A stretch of DNA of 23,033 nt. It comes from a virus. The DNA lies in the IMG/VR virus record IMGVR_UViG_3300027833_000229, positions 1 through 23,033 of that record, one strand, 5' to 3'. Below the pieces are notes generated by a model that saw only the letters and a program-made list of their open reading frames with translations, ran no database searches and was not told where the DNA came from. A program made the position numbers and the translations under genes. Shown here one piece after another: positions 1-16,781 of the stretch (positions within the stretch are counted from its first letter, which is position 1; every line of letters begins with the position of its first letter).

Positions 1-1955
1 CTAATAACAATAAAATCACCAGTTGTTAAACCGTGTGCTACAGAAGTTATAGTTAATCCTGTACCTGAACGAACCCAACTTAAACCACCTTCTACGTTAC
101 CTGAAGACATTACTTGAGATGAGTTACTACCAGCAGTTTGTATATATCTAACTACTGGGTTATATGAAGCACCACCACCACCTGCGATAGTTACTGTTAC
201 GTCATCTACGCTAGTTGTAGCTACTACTCCAGCTCCTACAAAATTGATTTGAGCTACATCGGTAGTTAAAGAAACACCTTCATCTTGAACAGTTATTGAT
301 TGTCCTGTACCTGATGTACCTGATGAACCTGAGCTACCATCAATACCTGATGTACCTGAAGAACCGCTTGAACCTGAAGTACCTGAAGTACCTGAAGAAC
401 CGGATGAACCATCGATACCTGAAGTACCTGATGAGCCACTTGAACCCGAAGTTCCTGATGAACCTGATGTACCTGAAGTACCTGAAGAACCTGAGCTACC
501 TGAAGTACCTGATGAACCTGAGCTACCGCTTGTACCTGATGAACCACTTGAACCCGAAGTACCTGAGCTACCTGATGAGCCTGAATCACCTACACCTACA
601 ACTTTAACCGCATCAAACGAAAAGTTAATTGGAGTAAAATTAACAGTTGCCCCACCAGTTGTTCTTTTAAAGTAAACACCTAGGGTATCACCAGAAGATA
701 AATCAACTAGCTCTGTCATACCAAATGAACCAATAACTCCAGAATCAAACTCCCTTCTAACTTCAGTAGATGCTATTGGGGAACCGTTTAGATAAACAAC
801 ACACCATACCGCTGTATTATTAGTGTCTACTGATAAAGATAATTGAATATTTAGTTGGTATACTCCTGGGTAAGTAATGTTTGGTGAAAGTGTGCTTGCG
901 GTTGCACCCGTACCTACTACACGAGTCATACCGTTTATTTCTCCAAGTGTATCAGTGTTCCAACCTGAGTATGTGTTTAATGTTAATGCTCTTGCTGATC
1001 CGTTTGTCTCAAATATTTGTCCATATGCTACACCACCAGTAACCGTACCTGATGTACCTGAAGTACCTGATGAACCAGATGAACCATCTGTACCTACACC
1101 TGAAGTACCTGATGAACCGCTTGATCCGTCTGTTCCTACACCTGAGGTTCCTGATGAACCAGATGTACCTGAACTGCCTGAGCTACCATCAGCACCTGAT
1201 GTACCTGATGAACCTGAGCTACCATCAGCACCTGATGTACCTGATGAACCTGAGCTACCATCTGTACCTACACCTGAAGTACCACTTGATCCTGATGAAC
1301 CGTCAGCACCTGCAACTCCTGAAGTACCACTTGATCCTGATGAACCATCAGCACCTGCAACACCTGAAGTACCTGAAGAGCCTGAAGAACCATCTACACC
1401 TGAGGTACCTGAAGAGCCGGATGAACCCGCTGCACCTGCAACACCTGATGTACCTGAAGAACCTGATGAGCCGTCTATACCTGAAGTTCCTGAAGAACCT
1501 GATGAGCCGTCTATACCTGAAGTTCCTGATGAACCTGATGAACCATCAGCACCTGAAGTACCTGATGAACCAGATGAACCATCTGTACCTACACCTGAGG
1601 TACCTGATGAACCACTTGAACCATCTGTACCTACACCTGAAGTACCTGATGAACCAGAACTACCCGCACCACCTGATTGATCTACCCATTGGGTATTATA
1701 GTTAGTACCATCAATTTTAGATAATACCTGACCTACAGTACCTCCTACTGGGACACCTTGTCCTGAAGTACCAGAACTACCGGAACTACCAGAGCCGCCG
1801 CCTCCTCCGGAGCCAACTTCTATGATATTACCATTAGATTCCTTTAAAAATAGACCTTCGTCTCCTAGCGAACCAGAAGAAAAGATAGCAACATTCCCAT
1901 TGGCTGGGTTTGATACATCACTTCCTGAGGTATTTAGTATATTAATTTGAGCCAC
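1..1955 (-). CDS. Collagen-like tail fibre protein with C1q-like domain (C-terminus beyond window)
   Basis: The frame is open from a GTG at 1955 to the window edge, about 651 codons, so the C-terminus is missing. GTG is chosen because an in-frame TAA lies five codons upstream and the product then starts [11 protein letters not shown], like the MA starts of its neighbours. Order of domains: N-terminal adaptor-like part (1-93) with a short GSS linker; a Gly-X-Y tract rich in GSS and GTS (about 94-303); a beta-rich domain (about 304-452) with the segments [22 protein letters not shown] and SGDTLGVYF, resembling C1q/TNF jelly rolls; a second Gly-X-Y tract (about 454-552); then a segment with VQDEGVSL and INFVGAGV, seen in many phage fibre proteins. 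The triplets lack proline. The inferred role is a trimeric receptor-binding or decoration fibre. It follows the neck and tail-completion genes and has its own promoter-like motif. Confidence 0.85.
300..596 (-). repeat. Collagen-like Gly-X-Y repeat tract 2
   Basis: About 33 consecutive Gly-X-Y triplets, nearly all GSS or GTS with occasional GID, run without a register break. At DNA level this is a degenerate 9-base periodicity. It codes for the second stalk of the fibre protein. Confidence 0.85.
1047..1675 (-). repeat. Collagen-like Gly-X-Y repeat tract 1
   Basis: About 70 Gly-X-Y triplets ([15 protein letters not shown]). Blocks reading GVGTDG add two residues and shift the register, so the triple-helix phase is interrupted several times. 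Longer DNA units are visible: a 36-base tandem at 1177-1248 and a 45-base unit repeated around 1280-1370, signs of recent repeat expansion by recombination or slippage. Confidence 0.85.
1177..1248 (-). repeat. 36-base perfect tandem duplication
   Basis: Positions 1177-1212 and 1213-1248 are identical, and a third copy begins at 1249. The unit codes for twelve residues (four Gly-X-Y triplets including GAD), so copy number can change without breaking the reading frame. Confidence 0.85.
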
Positions 1956-5632: not shown

Positions 5633-6167
5633 ATGAAGAAGCTACAACGTATTCTAGTTGTATACTTCCGCTGTAAGTTAAATCGTTATCACCTGCTTTT
5701 GCTTTAATCTCACTCATGTAAGTAAAATCGTCAAAATATTGTTTATCTGCATATGTTTCCTCTACATAATCAGCTGTTGAAGAAGCATCAAATACATCAT
5801 TACTTAATATAAGTGATTTACCTGGGTCTACTTTAAATACTACTGATTCTGCATTTTCTTTAATAATATAAATGCTTGCGAACTTATCACTAAATGGGTA
5901 ATTAGTGATTCTAATATATTTAACGTTAGCGTTTACAAATGAACCTGGAGTTTGTTCTTGTTCTGAACCTACAAAATCTATGATACCAATACCTGAACCA
6001 CTCCAATCGGGTTGGATTACATCAGTTCTAGTAACATAGTTGTTTATACCACATACCGTAAATTTATTAAACGATTCCTGAACGTTATAATTAGGGAGAA
6101 TAATAGATTCTTGGATAGTTACATCCAAACAGCCAGTAGGTGGGGTTTTAGGAGGACAATTTGCCAT
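5631..6167 (-). CDS. Hypothetical virion-associated protein
   Basis: A 178-residue protein that I do not recognise. It begins MANCPPKTPPTGCLDVTIQE, with two cysteines and a Pro-rich stretch, then alternates short beta-like segments (FTVCGINNYVTRTDV, NVKYIRITNYPF, FASIYIIKENAE, SVVFKVDPGKSLILS) before an acidic aromatic patch and a final strand SIQLEYVVASS. The composition fits a globular beta-sandwich virion protein. It has no membrane segment. It lies between PhoH and a fibre-like gene, with a promoter-like motif 11 bases upstream of its ATG. A head decoration or tail accessory protein is the likeliest role, inferred from context only. Confidence 0.7.
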   Translation of the reverse strand: MANCPPKTPPTGCLDVTIQESIILPNYNVQESFNKFTVCGINNYVTRTDVIQPDWSGSGIGIIDFVGSEQEQTPGSFVNANVKYIRITNYPFSDKFASIYIIKENAESVVFKVDPGKSLILSNDVFDASSTADYVEETYADKQYFDDFTYMSEIKAKAGDNDLTYSGSIQLEYVVASS

Positions 6168-6178
6168 GCTTATTTTAG

Positions 6179-6189
6179 TTATAAATATT
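6179..6189 (-). promoter_or_regulatory. Late-promoter-like motif upstream of the 5631-6167 gene
   Basis: The minus strand reads AATATTTATAACTAAAATAA, ending 11 bases before the ATG at 6167. It lies in the short gap after the PhoH stop codon. Confidence 0.5.
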
Positions 6190-6202
6190 AGAAGAAATAT
6201 TA

Positions 6203-6934
6203 CTATTTACGTTTATTACTAGAACCTGAAGTACCTAAATCCAATCCATTTTCTTCGGCTTCATCGTATAAGTTAATTAAATCTTCAACAATAGGATCTC
6301 TATGGTTAGTTACTAAAGAAATACCTACCATGTTTTTAATCTTACGTGCTGCTGTATATAAAAATCTAAATCCAGAGTCGCGTTTTGACTTTAAATCCAC
6401 TTGGTGATCATCACCACACACAATCATTTTAGAACGTAAACCAATACGAGTAACAATCATTTGCATTTGTTCGTGTGTAACGTTTTGAGCTTCATCCACG
6501 ATAACAACACTATCTAAGAATGTTCTACCACGCATAAAACTAACAGGAACAATCTCTATTGCACCATCTGATATAAGTTTCTCGATTTTAACCTTATCAT
6601 ACAGGGCATACATATTTTGATAAATAGGCTGCACCCATGGGTCCATCTTCTCGCGGAGATCACCCGGTAAAAAGCCGATTTCTTCCTTACTCACAGTAGG
6701 TCGCGTTATGATTATTTTATCGCATTCTCTCATGAATAATTTCTCAAGTGCGATTTGACAAGCTAGTAAAGTTTTACCTGAACCTGCTGAACCTGCTAAT
6801 AGAGTAATTGTACTTTTAAGGATTTTAGCTTTTGCTTCTTTTTGTTCCTCGTTTAATGTAATTTTAAACTTGATGGGAGTTTTAGGTTTACGTTTTTCAC
6901 GGAATACCTCATCATCATGATGCTTTTGAGCCAT
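6203..6934 (-). CDS. phoH: PhoH-like P-loop ATPase
   Basis: A 243-residue single-domain PhoH-family ATPase. Visible motifs are the Walker A GSAGSGKT (48-55), the PhoH-specific IITRPTVSKEEIGFLPGDL (from 75) and VQPIYQNM, then FMRGRTFLDSVVIVDEAQN (about 133-151), which includes Walker B, and a late GDDHQVD. The family binds and hydrolyses ATP and is thought to act on RNA. It is common in phages, where its role is unsettled and phosphate starvation is only one proposal. The C-terminus ends in a polar GTSGSSNKRK tail. It sits between the capsid terminator and small virion genes, so it appears to be expressed with late genes. There is no clear Shine-Dalgarno; a variant of the promoter motif lies upstream. 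Confidence 0.93.
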   Translation of the reverse strand: MAQKHHDDEVFREKRKPKTPIKFKITLNEEQKEAKAKILKSTITLLAGSAGSGKTLLACQIALEKLFMRECDKIIITRPTVSKEEIGFLPGDLREKMDPWVQPIYQNMYALYDKVKIEKLISDGAIEIVPVSFMRGRTFLDSVVIVDEAQNVTHEQMQMIVTRIGLRSKMIVCGDDHQVDLKSKRDSGFRFLYTAARKIKNMVGISLVTNHRDPIVEDLINLYDEAEENGLDLGTSGSSNKRK

Positions 6935-6957
6935 AATATAGAACTTTTAGTTGTTTA

Positions 6958-6968
6958 TTATACATATA
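6958..6968 (-). promoter_or_regulatory. Variant promoter-like motif upstream of phoH
   Basis: The minus strand reads TATATGTATAATAAAC, differing at two positions from the recurring AATATTTATAATAAA motif, 23 bases before the phoH ATG. It abuts the T-run of the capsid-gene terminator, as the exact motif does at 5042-5052. Confidence 0.35.
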
Positions 6969-6996
6969 AAAAAAAAAGCCCCGCTTTCGCGGGGCT
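6968..6996 (-). terminator. Rho-independent terminator after the major capsid gene
   Basis: A perfect eight-base stem (6977-6984 AGCCCCGC with 6989-6996 GCGGGGCT) with a four-base loop is followed on the minus strand by about nine T. It lies 26 bases after the capsid stop codon and separates capsid transcription from phoH. Confidence 0.92.
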
Positions 6997-7022
6997 TAAT
7001 TTTTCCTATTTTAGGTTATTTA

Positions 7023-8711
7023 CTAGAGCGAGTTTAGACCGTTCACGTAAACTTTACCATAAAATTCTGGACGAATCATCTTCTTAGCGTAACGAGTTAA
7101 GAGACCTTTACGTGGAGTAAACGTTTCTGGATCGTAGATAAGAGGAGTCATGATTAACGGAATGTATGGAGCGAATACAGCACCACTTTCCAAGAACTGA
7201 GAACCTCTATACCCCATAAGGATAACGTTTTCGTTCATGTAAGGGTTTTTGTATACGTCATATCTGTTATTCAATGAACCAGCTTTTTGTACACCAAACG
7301 CATAGTTTTTAGATACATCACCATCTGAAGTTGAGGCAAATCCTGGGATTGATTCTAGGATTGTTGCAACAGCAGGAGAAATTACCATAAAATTAGCACC
7401 ACCTCTAAGAGTTAACTGGTGAATTCTATTTGACAATTTCTGTAGTTTAGTACCTAAAGTTTGGAACCAACCACCTTGAGTATTGTAGAAACCTGAAGCG
7501 TCAACGTTAACAACGTTACCAGCTGCATCTACTTGTCTGTTGTTTTGAGCTGACCAGTACTCAGTACCAGCGGCAGCATCTTCAATCAACATATCAAGAA
7601 TTTCTAAGTCAATTTCCAAAGAAATGTACTCACTCATGATGTTAGTTACTTCAGCTTCAGCATCCAAAGCTTGGTAAGCGTTAAGATCTTGAGCGAACTC
7701 AGGAGTCCAAACAGCTTTCAACTTTTTAGTCTTAGCTACGATAGCCTCTGAACGCATCTGGATGTTAATCTCAGGGATTGCGATTTGAGTCTGGTTAAGT
7801 GAGTTTGGCTCAGCAAAGTCATTACCCGCTTCGAAATCACCTACCTCGTAAGGAGACATAGTTGTTGCTTTCTGATAGTATACGTCGAAATCTGTTAAGT
7901 TAAGAAGTGAAGCATCTGAAGCAGATACAAAGAATTCAAGATTTACACCGTTTACTTTAGTAAATGACATTAGCAAATCATCAGCTTGTACTGAAACAGC
8001 ATCTCCGATTGATCCTGAAATAAGAACAAAACCACGAACAGCATCAGCATCGAATGATGGTAAGTCTGAAGTAGCAACTTGGAATTTCCAGATTTCGTTT
8101 TCTGACAAAGAAGCAGATAATCTACTATCAAAGTTGATATCAGAAAAAACTGCAGAAGCAGATGCAACACCACCTTGAAGTACTAGATCAACTGATTCTG
8201 AGAATTGGTTGGTTGAGTAAGTAAACTTACCTGCACCATACAATCCACCAGCACCTAATTGGTCCAAGTTACTTGTAGCAGTACCGAATGGGTAATCTGC
8301 ATTAGCATTACCGTAAAGTGAATCGCCTGCACTGAATGGAGTTTTAGTGCTACCATATTGGAAATCTAGATAAAATACTAGACCTGAAGGTAGGTTCATC
8401 GGCTGAACAGAAACGAATTCCTTAGCAGCGATTTGACCGAATACCTTACGTACCAATGGAAGAGCTACACCAGCCCACTGCTCACCTGTACCTACTGTAA
8501 AGTTAGCTGTACCACCTGTTTGTGATTGCTCAGTTACTAATTGTTTAGCTTGGTTTTCGAGGATCAAACTCATGTTGTTTTTATCAACTTCTTTATTGAA
8601 GCCTTCTAACAAACCTGTTTTTTCCCACTTATTAGCCAATCTAGCAGCGTCTGATTGCATGTTTTTCCAACCTGAACCTGCAGACTCTAAAAGAGAATTT
8701 AATTGTGACAT
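7023..8711 (-). CDS. 23: Major capsid protein, gp23-like
   Basis: A 562-residue protein, close to T4 gp23 (521), forming the hexamers of the head. The segment LVRKVFGQIAAKEFVSVQPM followed by NLPSG (about 86-110) matches the start of the mature gp23 fold. ILENQ at 50-54 parallels IFENQ in the T4 propeptide, and the end KKMIRPEFYGKVYVNGLNSL is typical. T4 gp23 is cut after residue 65 (LTE) by the gp21 protease; here LVTE at 58-61 is the likely equivalent, though glutamine rather than alanine follows. A Ser/Ala/Leu-rich middle (about 150-270) looks like an inserted domain. There is no Shine-Dalgarno; the leader is A-rich. A strong terminator follows, and the scaffold gene ends 18 bases upstream. 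Confidence 0.95.
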   Translation of the reverse strand: MSQLNSLLESAGSGWKNMQSDAARLANKWEKTGLLEGFNKEVDKNNMSLILENQAKQLVTEQSQTGGTANFTVGTGEQWAGVALPLVRKVFGQIAAKEFVSVQPMNLPSGLVFYLDFQYGSTKTPFSAGDSLYGNANADYPFGTATSNLDQLGAGGLYGAGKFTYSTNQFSESVDLVLQGGVASASAVFSDINFDSRLSASLSENEIWKFQVATSDLPSFDADAVRGFVLISGSIGDAVSVQADDLLMSFTKVNGVNLEFFVSASDASLLNLTDFDVYYQKATTMSPYEVGDFEAGNDFAEPNSLNQTQIAIPEINIQMRSEAIVAKTKKLKAVWTPEFAQDLNAYQALDAEAEVTNIMSEYISLEIDLEILDMLIEDAAAGTEYWSAQNNRQVDAAGNVVNVDASGFYNTQGGWFQTLGTKLQKLSNRIHQLTLRGGANFMVISPAVATILESIPGFASTSDGDVSKNYAFGVQKAGSLNNRYDVYKNPYMNENVILMGYRGSQFLESGAVFAPYIPLIMTPLIYDPETFTPRKGLLTRYAKKMIRPEFYGKVYVNGLNSL

Positions 8712-8729: not shown

Positions 8730-9767
8730 TTATTTAATACCTGCTAATTTTTGCCATCTAGCAACCTGAGAGTTGACTTCAACTATAGGTTGTTTTGTTG
8801 GCGCAATACCAGCAGCAGAAGAAGCGCGACCTAAATTTTCTCTAATTGGAGCAACGGTTTTATTAACCATACCTTCGTTTAAAGTTTCAAAAATAAGTTT
8901 TACTTCTTTAACATTCGACGCCTTGTCAAACGCTTCTAGAACTTTTACCTTCTGAGCTTCTTTTAAGTTTTTAGCTCTGAAGATTTTATTTGTGTAGAGA
9001 AGTTTAGCGTTCAAAAGATTAGTTTCGTGAAGGTCAGATCTCAATTCCTCGATTTCTTCTTTCATTTTCTTCATATCTTCTTCTTCGTCCTTCATACCGT
9101 CTTTGTAGCCTTCTTCCTCAGCATCAGTACGTGCGTTCTCTGTAACTTCTACGTCTACCTCTGTGTCATCTTCTACATCGATATCCTCATCATCTTCAAC
9201 GTCGATTTCATCTTCGTCTTCTGTTTCAAATTCTTCGCCTGCTTCTAATTCACCAGCGGTAACCATATCAGCGATTACATCCTCAATAAATGATTTAAGA
9301 TCATCTTCTGATAAGTCGTCAAGATCAATTTCTTCATCTTCGTCATCACCTTCCATGTCTTCTTTTTCATCTTCCATGCCGTCTTCGTAGCCTTCTTCCT
9401 CAGCATCCGTTCTTTCATCTTCCGATAAATCACCTTCAAGTTCAGCTAAAATTTCGTCTAAGTCCATTTCCTCGTCTACTTCAGATTCAGCTAAGTCTTT
9501 TCCGTACTTCATTTTTTCTGTACGTTTAGTTTCTTTGCTTTCACCGCCGTCTTTACGATCGTCGTCCTTGTACTCTTTTTTAGCTTCAGTCGTTGTAGCT
9601 TCTTCTAGTTCGTCTTCTTTATCCATTTCCTCAAGTTTAGCTGAAAGCATTGACTTAAGTCTTGGTTCGAAAGCTTCTTCTAGAGCTACCTTTGCGTTAG
9701 CAATAGCAGTTTCTTTAAGTGCTTTTGCGTCAGCGATTGCTTCTTTTAGCAGATCTCTGTTTGCCAT
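8730..9767 (-). CDS. 22: Prohead core scaffold protein, gp22-like
   Basis: A 345-residue, very acidic and mostly helical protein, larger than T4 gp22 (269). It is called as scaffold because it lies between protease and capsid genes and ends RWQKLAGIK, like other gp22 C-termini; the final 110 residues (ELRSDLHETNLLNAKLLYTN onwards) resemble gp22. Residues 95-235 are dominated by Asp and Glu. A 21-residue block around TDAEEEGY occurs twice (118-138 and 212-232) and again in the neighbouring 10583-11608 gene. The scaffold forms the internal core and is then degraded by the protease. The start has a plausible Shine-Dalgarno, GAGG, seven bases upstream. It is preceded by a 208-base structured gap with terminator and promoter-like motif. 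Confidence 0.88.
   Translation of the reverse strand: MANRDLLKEAIADAKALKETAIANAKVALEEAFEPRLKSMLSAKLEEMDKEDELEEATTTEAKKEYKDDDRKDGGESKETKRTEKMKYGKDLAESEVDEEMDLDEILAELEGDLSEDERTDAEEEGYEDGMEDEKEDMEGDDEDEEIDLDDLSEDDLKSFIEDVIADMVTAGELEAGEEFETEDEDEIDVEDDEDIDVEDDTEVDVEVTENARTDAEEEGYKDGMKDEEEDMKKMKEEIEELRSDLHETNLLNAKLLYTNKIFRAKNLKEAQKVKVLEAFDKASNVKEVKLIFETLNEGMVNKTVAPIRENLGRASSAAGIAPTKQPIVEVNSQVARWQKLAGIK
9072..9134 (-). repeat. Acidic TDAEEEGY block, copy 2 (scaffold 212-232)
   Basis: Codes for ARTDAEEEGYKDGMKDEEED and one more residue. Lysine replaces acidic residues at two variable positions, while the TDAEEEGY and DGM cores are unchanged. Confidence 0.85.
9354..9416 (-). repeat. Acidic TDAEEEGY block, copy 1 (scaffold 118-138)
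   Basis: Codes for ERTDAEEEGYEDGMEDEKED and one more residue. It matches copy 2 in the same protein and a third copy in the 10583-11608 gene at most positions, including Arg, TDAEEEGY, DGM and D.E.D. Confidence 0.85.
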
Positions 9768-9836
9768 AATTACCTCAAAATTTTGTTTGTGGAGTACGCC
9801 TATTAGAAGACGTAATAAGAATTATTTAATTAGTGA

Positions 9837-9857
9837 ATACTATATAGATCATAGTAT
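9837..9857. repeat. Inverted repeat in the scaffold leader
   Basis: ATACTAT at 9837-9843 and ATAGTAT at 9851-9857 form perfect seven-base arms around a seven-base spacer. It lies within the presumed untranslated leader of the scaffold gene and could be a leader hairpin or an operator. Confidence 0.6.
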
Positions 9858-9874
9858 ATTGCTCACGTTACAGC

Positions 9875-9886
9875 TATACATATATA
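9875..9886 (-). promoter_or_regulatory. Possible promoter upstream of the scaffold gene
   Basis: The minus strand reads TATATATGTATAGC, sharing ATATGTATA with the variant upstream of phoH, about ten bases after the terminator at 9896-9923. It lies roughly 107 bases from the scaffold start, so a longer leader would result. Weak support. Confidence 0.3.
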
Positions 9887-9895
9887 AAGGGACAT

Positions 9896-9923
9896 AAAAA
9901 ACGCCCCCCTTTCGGAGAGCGTT
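9896..9923 (-). terminator. Minus-strand terminator with GAAA loop after the protease gene
   Basis: As minus-strand RNA, AACGCUCUCC pairs with GGGGGGCGUU (ten pairs, two of them G-U) around a GAAA tetraloop, and U residues follow. On the plus strand the two G-U pairs become C-A mismatches, so the structure favours minus-strand transcription. It lies about 50 bases after the protease stop. Confidence 0.85.
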
Positions 9924-9929
9924 TTGGGT

Positions 9930-9948
9930 CTTAGGATACTATCCTAAG
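9930..9948. repeat. 19-base perfect palindrome between protease and scaffold genes
   Basis: CTTAGGATA and TATCCTAAG flank a single central C and are followed on the plus strand by more G, giving a run of seven. It lies between the protease stop and the terminator. It could be an additional hairpin, an RNA-processing site or a protein-binding site; the sequence does not decide. Confidence 0.7.
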
Positions 9949-9975
9949 GGGGGGTAGCGCCTCAATACAGAGGTA

Positions 9976-10581
9976 TTAGTCTAAATAACAAGTGCAAGTG
10001 TTAGCGCATAAAAGTTCATTTACGATACTATTAACACCTTGATATTTATTTATTTGAGCTTTTTTACCTTCAGTAACAATTTCCATATATGAACCTGGAT
10101 TAGATGGGGTTGAAACAAAATCCCAACATAGTAATTCGAAGTCGTTTTGTACTTCTAATACACCACCTTTATCCTCAAGTGAACCCATCCCACGGGATGA
10201 AACACCTACAGTAATATTATTTTCAATTAATGCTTTAAGAATGTTTCCTGATGGTGTAGGTAGTATTTCGATTTTACCATACACTTCATCTCCGTCCCAC
10301 CACATTTCAGTAATATTATGGGATACATTTTTCAAGTTAATAACAGAGGATTCAGGGTGATCTAATTCACCTAATGCTCTGTTTTGTTTAACTGATTCCA
10401 TGTATTTATCGATCTCACGTTCCCATAATTCTCTTGGGTAGTAACGACCATTACCATTTTTTACTTCAGCAGTAGCTAGGATACCCTCAACCATAGGATT
10501 CCCTCTATTAGAGAGCTTCCCTTCGGTAAGCATTAAACCCTTAGGTTTAAAAATTTGAGTTTCTACTAGTACTTTTTTCAT
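9976..10581 (-). CDS. 21: Prohead maturation protease, gp21-like
   Basis: A 201-residue protein, near the 212 of T4 gp21, the serine protease built into the prohead core that cuts scaffold, capsid and internal proteins before packaging. Visible signatures: GILATAEVKNGNGRYYPREL (33-52), GELDHPES with the likely catalytic His75, GVSSRGMGS with the likely nucleophile Ser128 or Ser129, and a late FELLCWDFVSTPSNPGSYM (149-166) typical of the family. The end CANTCTCYLD is unusually rich in cysteine. The ATG follows the upstream TAG by one base, so it is coupled to the preceding core-protein gene. A terminator lies downstream, separating it from the scaffold gene. Confidence 0.92.
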   Translation of the reverse strand: MKKVLVETQIFKPKGLMLTEGKLSNRGNPMVEGILATAEVKNGNGRYYPRELWEREIDKYMESVKQNRALGELDHPESSVINLKNVSHNITEMWWDGDEVYGKIEILPTPSGNILKALIENNITVGVSSRGMGSLEDKGGVLEVQNDFELLCWDFVSTPSNPGSYMEIVTEGKKAQINKYQGVNSIVNELLCANTCTCYLD

Positions 10582-10582
10582 C

Positions 10583-11608
10583 CTAGTATTCCATTTCGTC
10601 TACTTCGTCTACCATTTCTGGTTTAGAATAAGCTTGACCACACATTTTTTCATACAACTTTTCCATTTTAGCCTTTTTTCTTTCAAGATCCTTAACTTCG
10701 CGTTGCATATCTTTCAGTTTCTTTGCATCTACTAATTCAGATAGATTATCATCTTCTGTAACCATCGAAATTCTTTCGTTTTTAGTAGTAATGGCTTCGT
10801 CAACTGATTCGATTTGAGCTTCTAAAGTAGTAATTCTACCTGCTTTTTCAATTTCAGCTAATTTAGTATCTATTGTTTCTTTTTTGATTTTTTTCTTTTT
10901 AGGCTTATCTTTTATATCTTCTTTCTCATCACGCATACCATCTAAATAACCTTCTTCTTCAGCATCAGTTCTTGCGTCTTCATTTGTCATCCCTATAGGG
11001 CGTAAATCAACGTAACCGGCAACCGCTTCGTTAATTAAATCTGTTAATTTAATCATATTTTCTTTTACTGGGACCATTTGGTCTGATTTTGAAGCTTTTA
11101 AACCGGGTGCTTCGTCAGTATACCCTATACCTTTAATACCAAACTGGGCTTCAGTAGTATAATATGTTTTATCTTTAGCTAAATTCTTAGCTACAATTTC
11201 TTTTAATTCAGCTACATCCTTACCTTCGTTTTTAGGATCTTCCATTTCAGTATAAAATCCTTGTAAAAATGCTTCACCATATAGGTTATCGATGTTTTTT
11301 TCATCTCTATAATCAAAGGCATGATCCTGTATATCTTCTACCTCTTTTGTAGTATTTTTTTCTTCTGCTTTTACTTCTTCAGATAAAAATTCATTCCAAT
11401 TAATAAATGGGTTAACAGCAGTCGTTACAACACCACCAATACCACCTTCTGAGATGATTTGTTTTTGTTTCATGACTTTAGTAGCAGTATCAAAATTTGA
11501 TAAATTATTAAAGATATTAGGAAACTGGGTACGAGCCGACTTCATAAAAGTATCTTTACTACCTTTACCTTCTTTAATAAGATTGTATTGTTCTTGTAAT
11601 GTTTTCAT
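10583..11608 (-). CDS. Probable prohead core or internal head protein sharing the TDAEEEGY block
   Basis: A 341-residue protein that I cannot assign to a named family. It is charged and largely helical: an N-terminal basic/helical part with MKSARTQFPNIFNNLSNF (22-39), an acidic middle, the motif MIKLTDLINEAVAGYV (185-200), the block ARTDAEEEGYLDGMRDEKED (212-231) shared with the scaffold, a lysine patch KPKKKKIKK (235-243) and a C-terminal coiled coil (about 245-325). It lies directly before the protease in the same coupled operon, its own start overlapping the previous stop as TAATG. Shared block and position suggest it joins the scaffold in the prohead core, comparable in role to T4 gp67, gp68 or internal proteins. 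That role is inferred. Confidence 0.75.
   Translation of the reverse strand: MKTLQEQYNLIKEGKGSKDTFMKSARTQFPNIFNNLSNFDTATKVMKQKQIISEGGIGGVVTTAVNPFINWNEFLSEEVKAEEKNTTKEVEDIQDHAFDYRDEKNIDNLYGEAFLQGFYTEMEDPKNEGKDVAELKEIVAKNLAKDKTYYTTEAQFGIKGIGYTDEAPGLKASKSDQMVPVKENMIKLTDLINEAVAGYVDLRPIGMTNEDARTDAEEEGYLDGMRDEKEDIKDKPKKKKIKKETIDTKLAEIEKAGRITTLEAQIESVDEAITTKNERISMVTEDDNLSELVDAKKLKDMQREVKDLERKKAKMEKLYEKMCGQAYSKPEMVDEVDEMEY
10913..10975 (-). repeat. Acidic TDAEEEGY block, copy 3 (in 10583-11608 protein)
   Basis: Codes for ARTDAEEEGYLDGMRDEKED and one more residue, nearly the same as both scaffold copies, although the two proteins are otherwise not obviously related. A three-residue acidic lead-in (NED) precedes it. 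Confidence 0.85.
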
Positions 11609-15200: not shown

Positions 15201-16781
15201 TTAGAGAATCCAACTTATGTCTTCTTTCCCACCATATGGATTTTCTATTTCATATGGATTTTGGGTAGCACTGTTATTACTATACCCCCCTACAAATGCT
15301 GTTTTATTGGTTGACATACCGTTTAATGTAGCTTTACTCATATCCAAATGTTGTTGGTTAAACTTAAACGACGTATCACGCATAAACATACCAATCCCAA
15401 ATGCCATAACCAAATCATCATTGTACCCTTGTTGGGCTTCAGCACGTCCATTTTTCCACATAAATACTTTCATTTCCTCAAGTAAACGTTTTGATTGAAT
15501 TGTAACTGATTTATCATTAACATATTCTTGAACTTTACCTATTATTAAAGGTCTAACTCTAGATGTCATACTAAATCCAGGAACCATTTTACTTGTATCC
15601 ATATATTTATCAAAATACGAATCTGCTCTGCTGGAATCACTTTTAGATGAGTAATAAAGATTAGTATATCCTCTATCTATAATGGTTTGAATCGTGGACC
15701 AACCAATTGAGGCATTCTCTACTACAAGTAAAGCCTCGTTATATTCGGTAGCAATACCAACTAATAAATGCCCATATTCTTTAGTGCCTAATTGTCCCCT
15801 ATATTCAGCGACTTGAGTATTAGTTTCAATATCAAGGATGTGGAACGCAGAGTAATCTTTCCCATCTCCACGAGCAACATCGGCAACAACAAGATAGGTT
15901 CTTGAATAATCAGCGGGTTCCCAAATCCATAGATTTTGGTCAGCACCACGCTTTTCAAGTGGGTCTTTAATATATGTTTGTTCATAAAATTCTAAATATT
16001 CAGCATAGAATACAGTATCACCGGAGGTTGAGAAATCACAATCACACTCTTGTGCTGCCATTCTAGGATCACCTAAAAGTTCATCTTGTCTATCTCTCCA
16101 TGTTTGATCACGTTCGGGATGAACGTACCAAGGGAGTTTAATGGGTAAAAAATCGTTTTCAGCATTTTCTGCTCTAACCCATGTTTGATGGAACCAGTTA
16201 CCTGTACCATAAGGAGTGGATAGTGCTATACACCCACCACCAGTTGCTAGTGTTTGTTGAGCTGAAGCCCAAATCTCACCAATATTATCAATAAAGGCTG
16301 CCTCATCAATTAATAGAAGAGACACTGCTTCTGATCTACCTGCATCACTTGATGCTGATGTAGCTTTAATTTGTGATCCATTACTTAATCGTAATGTTAA
16401 TTTATTATTTTCAGGTGCATCTATCTTAAGCCATGAAGGTAAATTTTCATACATGAATTTAACCTTCGTAACCATGTTTTTTGCTGTATCCTGCTTTGTC
16501 GCAATACAAAGTACGTTTCTATCCTTATGGAACAACATTAACCATAAAGAATACCCAGCACCTAAAGTAGAAATACCTAACTGTCTTGATTTAAGTATTA
16601 TCGAATAGGGGTTATCTTGAAATAAAGTTAAAACTTTTTCTTGAAAAGGGTACAGTTGGAATGGAATACGCCCACGTTGTGGGTGTTGAATCATACAGTA
16701 CTTTTTCATAAAATGCACTGGATCAGCAGCACATTTAATGTATTCAGATTGTATTATTTGCCTTAAATTAGGTTCTGCCAT
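15201..16781 (-). CDS. 17: Large terminase subunit, gp17-like
   Basis: A 526-residue packaging motor and nuclease (T4 gp17: 610). ATPase domain: Walker A SRQLGIST (65-72), Walker B LLLIDEAAF (155-163) and coupling motif ALSTPYGTGNWF (186-197). Nuclease domain of the RNase H fold: Asp301 in VVADVARGDGKDYSAF, Glu355 in LLVVENASIGW, and Asp455/Asp456 in GYNDDLVMAFG. All catalytic motifs look intact. The protein pumps DNA into the prohead through the portal and makes the final cuts. The start overlaps the stop of the membrane-protein gene as TAATG. No convincing small terminase is seen immediately upstream; the coiled-coil protein at 17361-17708 is a weak candidate. Confidence 0.96.
   Translation of the reverse strand: MAEPNLRQIIQSEYIKCAADPVHFMKKYCMIQHPQRGRIPFQLYPFQEKVLTLFQDNPYSIILKSRQLGISTLGAGYSLWLMLFHKDRNVLCIATKQDTAKNMVTKVKFMYENLPSWLKIDAPENNKLTLRLSNGSQIKATSASSDAGRSEAVSLLLIDEAAFIDNIGEIWASAQQTLATGGGCIALSTPYGTGNWFHQTWVRAENAENDFLPIKLPWYVHPERDQTWRDRQDELLGDPRMAAQECDCDFSTSGDTVFYAEYLEFYEQTYIKDPLEKRGADQNLWIWEPADYSRTYLVVADVARGDGKDYSAFHILDIETNTQVAEYRGQLGTKEYGHLLVGIATEYNEALLVVENASIGWSTIQTIIDRGYTNLYYSSKSDSSRADSYFDKYMDTSKMVPGFSMTSRVRPLIIGKVQEYVNDKSVTIQSKRLLEEMKVFMWKNGRAEAQQGYNDDLVMAFGIGMFMRDTSFKFNQQHLDMSKATLNGMSTNKTAFVGGYSNNSATQNPYEIENPYGGKEDISWIL

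Follow-up and report, generated by a model that had tools for sequence, protein, structure and literature searches.

We found that a short acidic block with the core RTDAEEEGYxDGMxDExED, which occurs twice in a gp22-like scaffold and once in the gene preceding the prohead protease (pre21) of a T4-like phage, is confined to head-assembly proteins, and that its carriers are two unrelated groups of aquatic phages. Judged from its sequence, the block is a near-invariant 20-residue acidic unit under selection at the protein level. The reading that we favour, and to which we give about an even chance, is that it represents an acidic module of the prohead core that is exchangeable and delimited by the protease; for this module we infer cleavage, retention and activity.

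The window analysed is the whole IMG/VR virus record IMGVR_UViG_3300027833_000229 (23,033 bases). Its minus strand carries a head module containing the terminase, the gp20 portal, three small genes, pre21, gp21, the gp22-like gene and gp23 (Table 1), which is of T4 type on the basis of matches to PF07230, PF03420 and PF07068, of PHROG matches and of the T4 gene order. The scaffold gene gave no match to a curated gp22 family in Pfam or PHROG, and its assignment as gp22 derives from its position and from homologous genes found at this place in Flavobacterium phage immuto and Microcystis phage Mel-JY01. Its product has a conserved N-terminal helix, an acidic variable middle part, C-terminal helices and an ...ARWQKLAGIK end. 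Pre21, which also had no match in Pfam or PHROG, is homologous to the hypothetical protein found at the same position in the immuto phages. When both AF2 models were compared to viral models in a structure search, all significant matches were uncharacterised proteins of uncultured phages.

Table 1. Head-module genes, block copies and predicted protease sites in the window.
Feature	Position	Strand	Basis or remark
Terminase	15201-16781	-	part of T4-type head module
pre21 (pre-protease core gene, 341 aa)	10583..11608	-	gene order; T4 gp67/gp68 position
Block copy 3, ARTDAEEEGYLDGMRDEKEDI	10913..10975	-	pre21 residues 212-232, disordered linker
gp21-type prohead protease (Peptidase_S77, PF03420)	9976..10581	-	domain match
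gp22-like scaffold gene (345 aa)	8730..9767	-	position gp20-pre21-gp21-gp22-gp23
Predicted gp21-type cut site L-S-E	9420..9428	-	gp22 residues 114-116, just before copy 1
Block copy 1, ERTDAEEEGYEDGMEDEKEDM	9354..9416	-	gp22 residues 118-138, slot A, predicted disordered
Predicted gp21-type cut site V-T-E	9138..9146	-	gp22 residues 208-210, just before copy 2
Block copy 2, ARTDAEEEGYKDGMKDEEEDM	9072..9134	-	gp22 residues 212-232, slot B, leads into helix
gp23-type major capsid protein (PF07068)	7023..8711	-	domain match
Capsid protein predicted maturation site ...QLVTE|Q	8529..8540	-	QLVxE| conserved, 88 distinct gp23 sequences

A preliminary description of this DNA had reported the 21-residue block, with an identical core, at three positions. 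When the window was searched with a degenerate DNA pattern of the core, these three sites and no further one were found, whereas 100 dinucleotide-preserving shuffles gave 0.00 on average. The block is the sole convincing region common to gp22 and pre21 (BLASTP E = 9e-7 around it); elsewhere, only weak, low-complexity matches were obtained, in agreement with the claim that the two proteins are otherwise dissimilar. The conserved unit reaches further left, to E-[DN]-[AE], and can be arranged in tandem with a 24-residue period (unit of 24-25 residues). The residues flanking the searched core, Thr before it and Asp after it, lie outside the search pattern but show 100% invariance. Since the gp22 and pre21 proteins are both acidic, a chance similarity of low-complexity sequence might be suspected; this explanation is refuted by the shuffles, by the invariance of these two residues and by the rarity of the block in cellular genomes, where the few matches are all phage-like (see below).

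The DNA of the three window copies is 76-83% identical, with identical codons at 9-12 of 17 same-residue positions. The frequency of identical codons was close to that expected from codon usage, both within genomes (0.574 vs. 0.589) and between genomes (0.600 vs. 0.575). Silent-site divergence therefore corresponds approximately to the prediction from codon usage, which indicates a constraint acting on the protein and no recent DNA copy; the selection proposed in the preliminary description is thus confirmed at this level. The same result rules out a recent DNA duplication or a mobile element of the Rickettsia palindromic type, even though a bias in Gly codons remains: the first Gly is encoded by GGC in 74% of gp22 copies, with respect to a 19% background. 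A repeat that moves or recombines at the DNA level and is in frame by accident would account for such biased codons and for the discrete presence or absence of the block across genes. However, the block is always in one frame and its flanks are unrelated, and we regard this explanation as largely refuted and scarcely credible.

In a DNA scan of the viral contigs of IMG/VR, DAEEEGYxDG was found in at least 119 contigs; two codon-restricted scans of viral contigs gave 22 and 106 contigs. In contrast with what would be expected of a widespread cellular acidic motif, a candidate that is hereby ruled out, the scan of bacterial and archaeal genomes (257 Gb, 11.3 million contigs) yielded only 4 contigs with the block, all 4 carrying phage core genes. 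When eight records of 6-98 kb were searched whole, the block was confined to head genes. The 208 distinct carrier ORFs among the matches listed are all predicted prohead-core or scaffold proteins, namely 130 gp22-like proteins, 26 pre21 proteins, 11 members of a family in which most N-termini resemble a capsid-targeting signal (CTS; family 4), one further CTS-like protein and 40 proteins of a second lineage; a wide occurrence in unrelated non-virion proteins, which the preliminary description had regarded as damaging to its proposal, was looked for and not found. In the second lineage, the carrier gene has a gene with a Peptidase_S78_2 domain on one side and that of a capsid-type protein of about 317 aa on the other, with the portal downstream; judged by this position, the carrier serves as scaffold in an unrelated head system with an S78-type protease. 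Block matches were all-or-nothing, that is, either strong (nearly all above 40 bits) or absent. The search of cultured phages with the short block by tblastn gave no match, probably owing to low-complexity masking, and the full window proteins had matches solely in one uncultured genome, the immuto phages and Microcystis phage Mel-JY01. In immuto and Mel-JY01, the gp22 homologue does not contain the block. The string DAEEEGY was not found in the open literature searched, consistent with the earlier remark that no motif of this form had been described.

Since every carrier found is a predicted core protein, the block might be a capsid-targeting signal that brings proteins into the core, as the preliminary description had suggested among other functions. 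Like the CTS of T4 IPI-IPIII, it is a short sequence on prohead-core proteins beside predicted protease sites. However, the T4 signal is N-terminal and removed, whereas the block is internal in gp22, pre21, the second-lineage scaffold and family 4. The latter comprises core proteins of 170-320 aa, most of which possess a separate CTS-like N-terminus (e.g. MENFDLKKYLAENKLLKE) ending in a predicted cut site; the single further carrier has a CTS-like start unlike that of family 4. Moreover, gp22, which itself forms the core, bears up to three copies, and the core proteins of most relatives have none. A targeting function is consequently very unlikely.

The T4 gp21 protease cuts after L/I-X-E, and replacement of the P1 residue by D prevents the cut in T4 while leaving targeting intact (PMC9026906). 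The tripeptide [LIVM]xE directly precedes the block in 138 of 140 distinct gp22 copies, with respect to a background of 6.1%. In fact, 24 of the 26 distinct junction tripeptides of gp22 fit this pattern (binomial 1e-12 given E). The same junction was found in 4/4 copies of the CTS family, but in just 7 of 14 pre21 copies; the copy in the window pre21 is preceded by T-N-E, which is not such a site. In tandem arrays, position 19 is L and the residue directly before the next copy is E in each of the 7 distinct linkers, a pattern that single copies usually do not have. The capsid site QLVxE| of gp23, from which the protease specificity of this phage group was deduced, is of the same class as the block junctions. 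Cleavage at the predicted sites would give peptides of 38 and 27 residues from the window gp22 copies, with pI values of 4.1 and 4.5, respectively. No internal [LIVM]xE site is present in the 140 gp22 copies, as compared to 41 in shuffles, although these copies are pseudoreplicated and, the core being invariant, amount effectively to one observation. It also counts against the predicted excision that L/I-x-E sites are common in acidic scaffolds.

In the second lineage, which has an S78-type protease, F or M occupies the corresponding position and [LIVM]xE was found in 0 of 27 cases. Excision by the same rule therefore cannot be general, and the presence of the block without the junction makes the gp21 protease itself unlikely as its partner. 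For this reason, the earlier proposal of a protease element is retained for gp22 and the CTS family in the sense of a delimited segment, but not in the sense of a recognition sequence, considering the counts for pre21 and the second lineage.

The gain and loss of the block was followed in samples gathered by gp21 or by the second-lineage capsid protein, and not by the block itself. The majority of the T4-like loci in the gp21 sample do not contain it, and 40 are without it in both gp22 and pre21. In the capsid-gathered sample, 32 second-lineage scaffolds have the block as compared to 43 that do not. On the gp21 tree (111 rows), the block state of gp22 changes 13 times, at least 11. Among the relatives of the window, L024 carries the block solely in gp22, and L075 in gp22 as well as in pre21. 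In the nearest one (sister L131) it is missing from both proteins; the preliminary description had named its absence from the head proteins of close relatives as evidence against its proposal. The block was found in pre21 at 5 of 74 loci with the block in gp22 vs. 2 of 47, which shows no association (Fisher p = 0.70). This result argues against an obligatory co-assembly pair of gp22 and pre21, and the idea of a co-assembly tag finds no support in that form.

The gp22 copies fall in two hypervariable acidic slots, 118 of them between an ..AEL helix and EIDLEDMSEDDL and 25 before LNEVNLLNAKLL. Relatives have other inserts in these slots, such as EPVSAMAIAAG.. in L024 and GFEQWLDSVSAQMDK.. in immuto. 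Some of these alternative inserts are duplicated between LxE sites and look membrane-active. In pre21, the slot is bounded by LTDLINEA..GYVDLRP and KKKxKKETIDSKLAEIE and contains the TDAEEEGY block, a DxDxDG block or, in L131, AKDKGEEDAFGAGVEKGEK. The DxDxDG block (E-x-A-[KR]-PD[FY]-x-D-[IV]-DGDGD) is calcium-loop-like, follows [MI]xE in about 15 of 21 cases and never occurs together with the TDAEEEGY block in pre21. Two further blocks, RDDSYGKFGKRD and PKKVGQST, are common to gp22, pre21 and the CTS family.

Because a DxDxDGD block fills the same pre21 slot in other phages, and the TDAEEEGY block can be read as D-x-E-x-E-G-Y-x-D, a likeness to EF-hand-type loops was considered. The block, however, has invariant Glu in place of Asp, Asn or Ser at ligand positions and no E or D at position 12. 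With respect to the calcium loop D-x-[DNS]-x-[DNS]-G...E12, it reads D-x-E-x-E-G-Y-x-D-G-x-[KREH], in which position 12 is basic or variable, and membership of this class was rejected.

The strict invariance of T, D, A, E, G, Y, D, G, D and D is not accounted for by an acidic peptide alone, and it implies a specific partner, such as another copy, the shell, a metal or DNA, or a host target. One possible but doubtful explanation along these lines is that of a helical element for self-association or docking, in which an A-xxx-G-xxx-G face and the conserved Tyr would pack on another copy, on the scaffold lattice or on the shell, and aid core assembly before cleavage. The fact that two unrelated head systems, whose proteases differ, have the block in their scaffolds is in favour of it, as are the tandem copies and the continuation of copy 2 into a long confident helix (gp22 residues 222-265 in the AF2 model). 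In contrast, copies 1 and 3 are predicted to be disordered (pLDDT < 50 over gp22 residues 116-145 and pre21 residues 204-234, respectively), the latter in the linker that joins the N-terminal domain to the C-terminal coiled coil. In a conservation-moment test, the variable positions gave a maximum at 95 degrees, a helical angle, but this periodicity is not significant (p = 0.23). The glycine-repeat helices of FliH/YscL proteins form dimer contacts. They share with the block an EEGYxxGxxx-type pattern, and sub-threshold HMM matches to two carriers lend docking some further support; nevertheless, the block has a single G-xxx-G and no long repeat, and membership of this family was rejected (18.9 and 21.2 bits vs. 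cut-offs of 220 and 180). Docking is also difficult to reconcile with the loss of the block in close relatives whose set of core genes is complete, and with the uncoupling of the gp22 and pre21 copies.

According to our preferred reading of an exchangeable module, the block would sit in disordered acidic linkers of gp22-like, pre21 and CTS-like core proteins and would enter the prohead as part of the core. In T4-like carriers, the predicted gp21-type cut would fall mostly at its start ([LIVM]-x-E|[DN]-[A/E]-R-T-D...) and never inside it, so that maturation would either excise it as an acidic peptide or leave it at the N-terminus of one. The peptide might bind cations or DNA-packaging partners, or the block might make core or shell contacts before cleavage. 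By analogy, the released peptide would be comparable to the gp22 and gp67 fragments of 2.5 kDa and 3.9 kDa that are kept in mature T4 heads at 115 and 139 copies per head (PMC9026906). The two cases are alike in the genome positions of the carriers (the scaffold and the core gene beside gp21), in the predicted gp21-type site before the gp22 copies and in the acidic nature and similar size of the peptides. They differ in that here one sequence recurs in the two proteins as well as in additional core proteins and an unrelated head lineage, that it is present or absent among close relatives, and that its cleavage and retention are predicted.

The T4 internal proteins are carried in the core, processed by the protease, dispensable and active in the host (PMC9026906). 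The block might likewise be a cargo peptide that the scaffold bears and the protease releases, and that is packaged along with the DNA to act in the infected cell, as a scaffold-embedded counterpart of IPI. Its rapid gain and loss, its near-invariant sequence common to unrelated phages and the swapping of cassettes at the same slots, including the duplicated and apparently membrane-active ones, are consistent with this possibility. The block and IPI, a core-packaged and injected inhibitor of a type IV restriction enzyme, are both core-carried, lineage-variable and likely processed. However, IPI folds as a protein of its own and has a separate gene, whereas the block consists of 20 residues within scaffolds; moreover, it is very acidic and short, and its retention and injection are conjectural, so that we consider a cargo function improbable. 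In the most far-reaching form of this idea, which seems to us equally improbable, scaffolds would be carriers of interchangeable cargo peptides, and the block, shared horizontally, would be excised from hundreds of scaffold molecules in each head and then packaged and delivered to hit a conserved bacterial target, such as a component of defence or transcription; other cassettes of the same slots would behave alike.

These results suggest a modular organisation of scaffolds, which would serve as carriers with exchangeable slots; no description of this feature was found in the literature searched. The same 20 residues are kept nearly unchanged in at least five protein families and in two unrelated head-assembly systems, and yet they are swapped among close relatives. 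Processed scaffold and core fragments stay inside T4 heads, and here one such segment is marked out by conservation. With the block, a defined peptide is thus available on which retention, binding and injection can be tested directly.

Two further cassettes recur among the head-core proteins of the related phages. The first one is basic, GYDDREDESLGxRxGAEKGKKQSMKxRRDDSYGKFGKRDAEAKGK..GPGKNKxNKE, and is common to three core protein families. The second, EMDEVSWNDKNNPTRGA..DPKKVGQSTSAY, is carried by pre21 (the core gene before the protease), the gp22-like scaffold or family 4, a core-protein family mostly with N-termini like capsid-targeting sequences (CTS). The C-terminus of gp22 reads ARWQKLAGIK or RMQKLAGII and is similar to an N-terminal EFLRMQKLAGLITE element in other proteins of the same phages, which gives these proteins a second core element in common.

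The gp22 scaffolds of L024 and L123 contain hydrophobic or amphipathic inserts, duplicated and bounded by LxE sites, which are unusual for scaffold proteins. The latter scaffold, from Flavobacterium phage immuto (MW353176.1, immuto35A_203), carries the label 'DNA polymerase phi-like protein', which is very likely wrong.

Within the window itself, the inverted repeat is probably an intrinsic terminator, and the low-complexity region may represent a minus-strand gene of Gly-rich repeats that continues past the contig end.

Features of the window and of loci of related phages (L-numbers)
Feature	Position or loci	Remark
GC-rich inverted repeat aaaaacgcccccctttcggagagcgtttt	window 9899-9928	between protease and scaffold genes
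Strongly repetitive low-complexity region	window 293-1705	repetitive in several reading frames
gp22 C-terminal element	window 8733-8760 and gp22 homologues; L156, L169, L175, L201, L127	
L024 gp22	6158-7651	insert EPVSAMAIAAGMASILGGSALLAKVQDKMEKG..
L123 gp22	5974-7239 (6001-7242 for the entry immuto35A_203)	insert GFEQWLDSVSAQMDKFGKNNPTIQAIEKAV..
Basic GYDDREDESLG cassette	gp22: L093, L029, L306; pre21: L048; family 4: L335, L354	
Cassette EMDEVSWNDKNNPTRGA..DPKKVGQSTSAY	L007, L016, L026, L048, L373	
Small proteins with CTS-like starts	L054, L117, L127, L290, L291, L335, L349, L354, L374 and others	

Numerous small proteins of the related phages begin with M-x-NFDLKKYLAENKLLKE or M-x-EFLHMQKLAGLITE. 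These starts look like capsid-targeting sequences, closing with a predicted gp21-type cut site, and the proteins that carry them may amount to a list of the internal proteins that are packaged.
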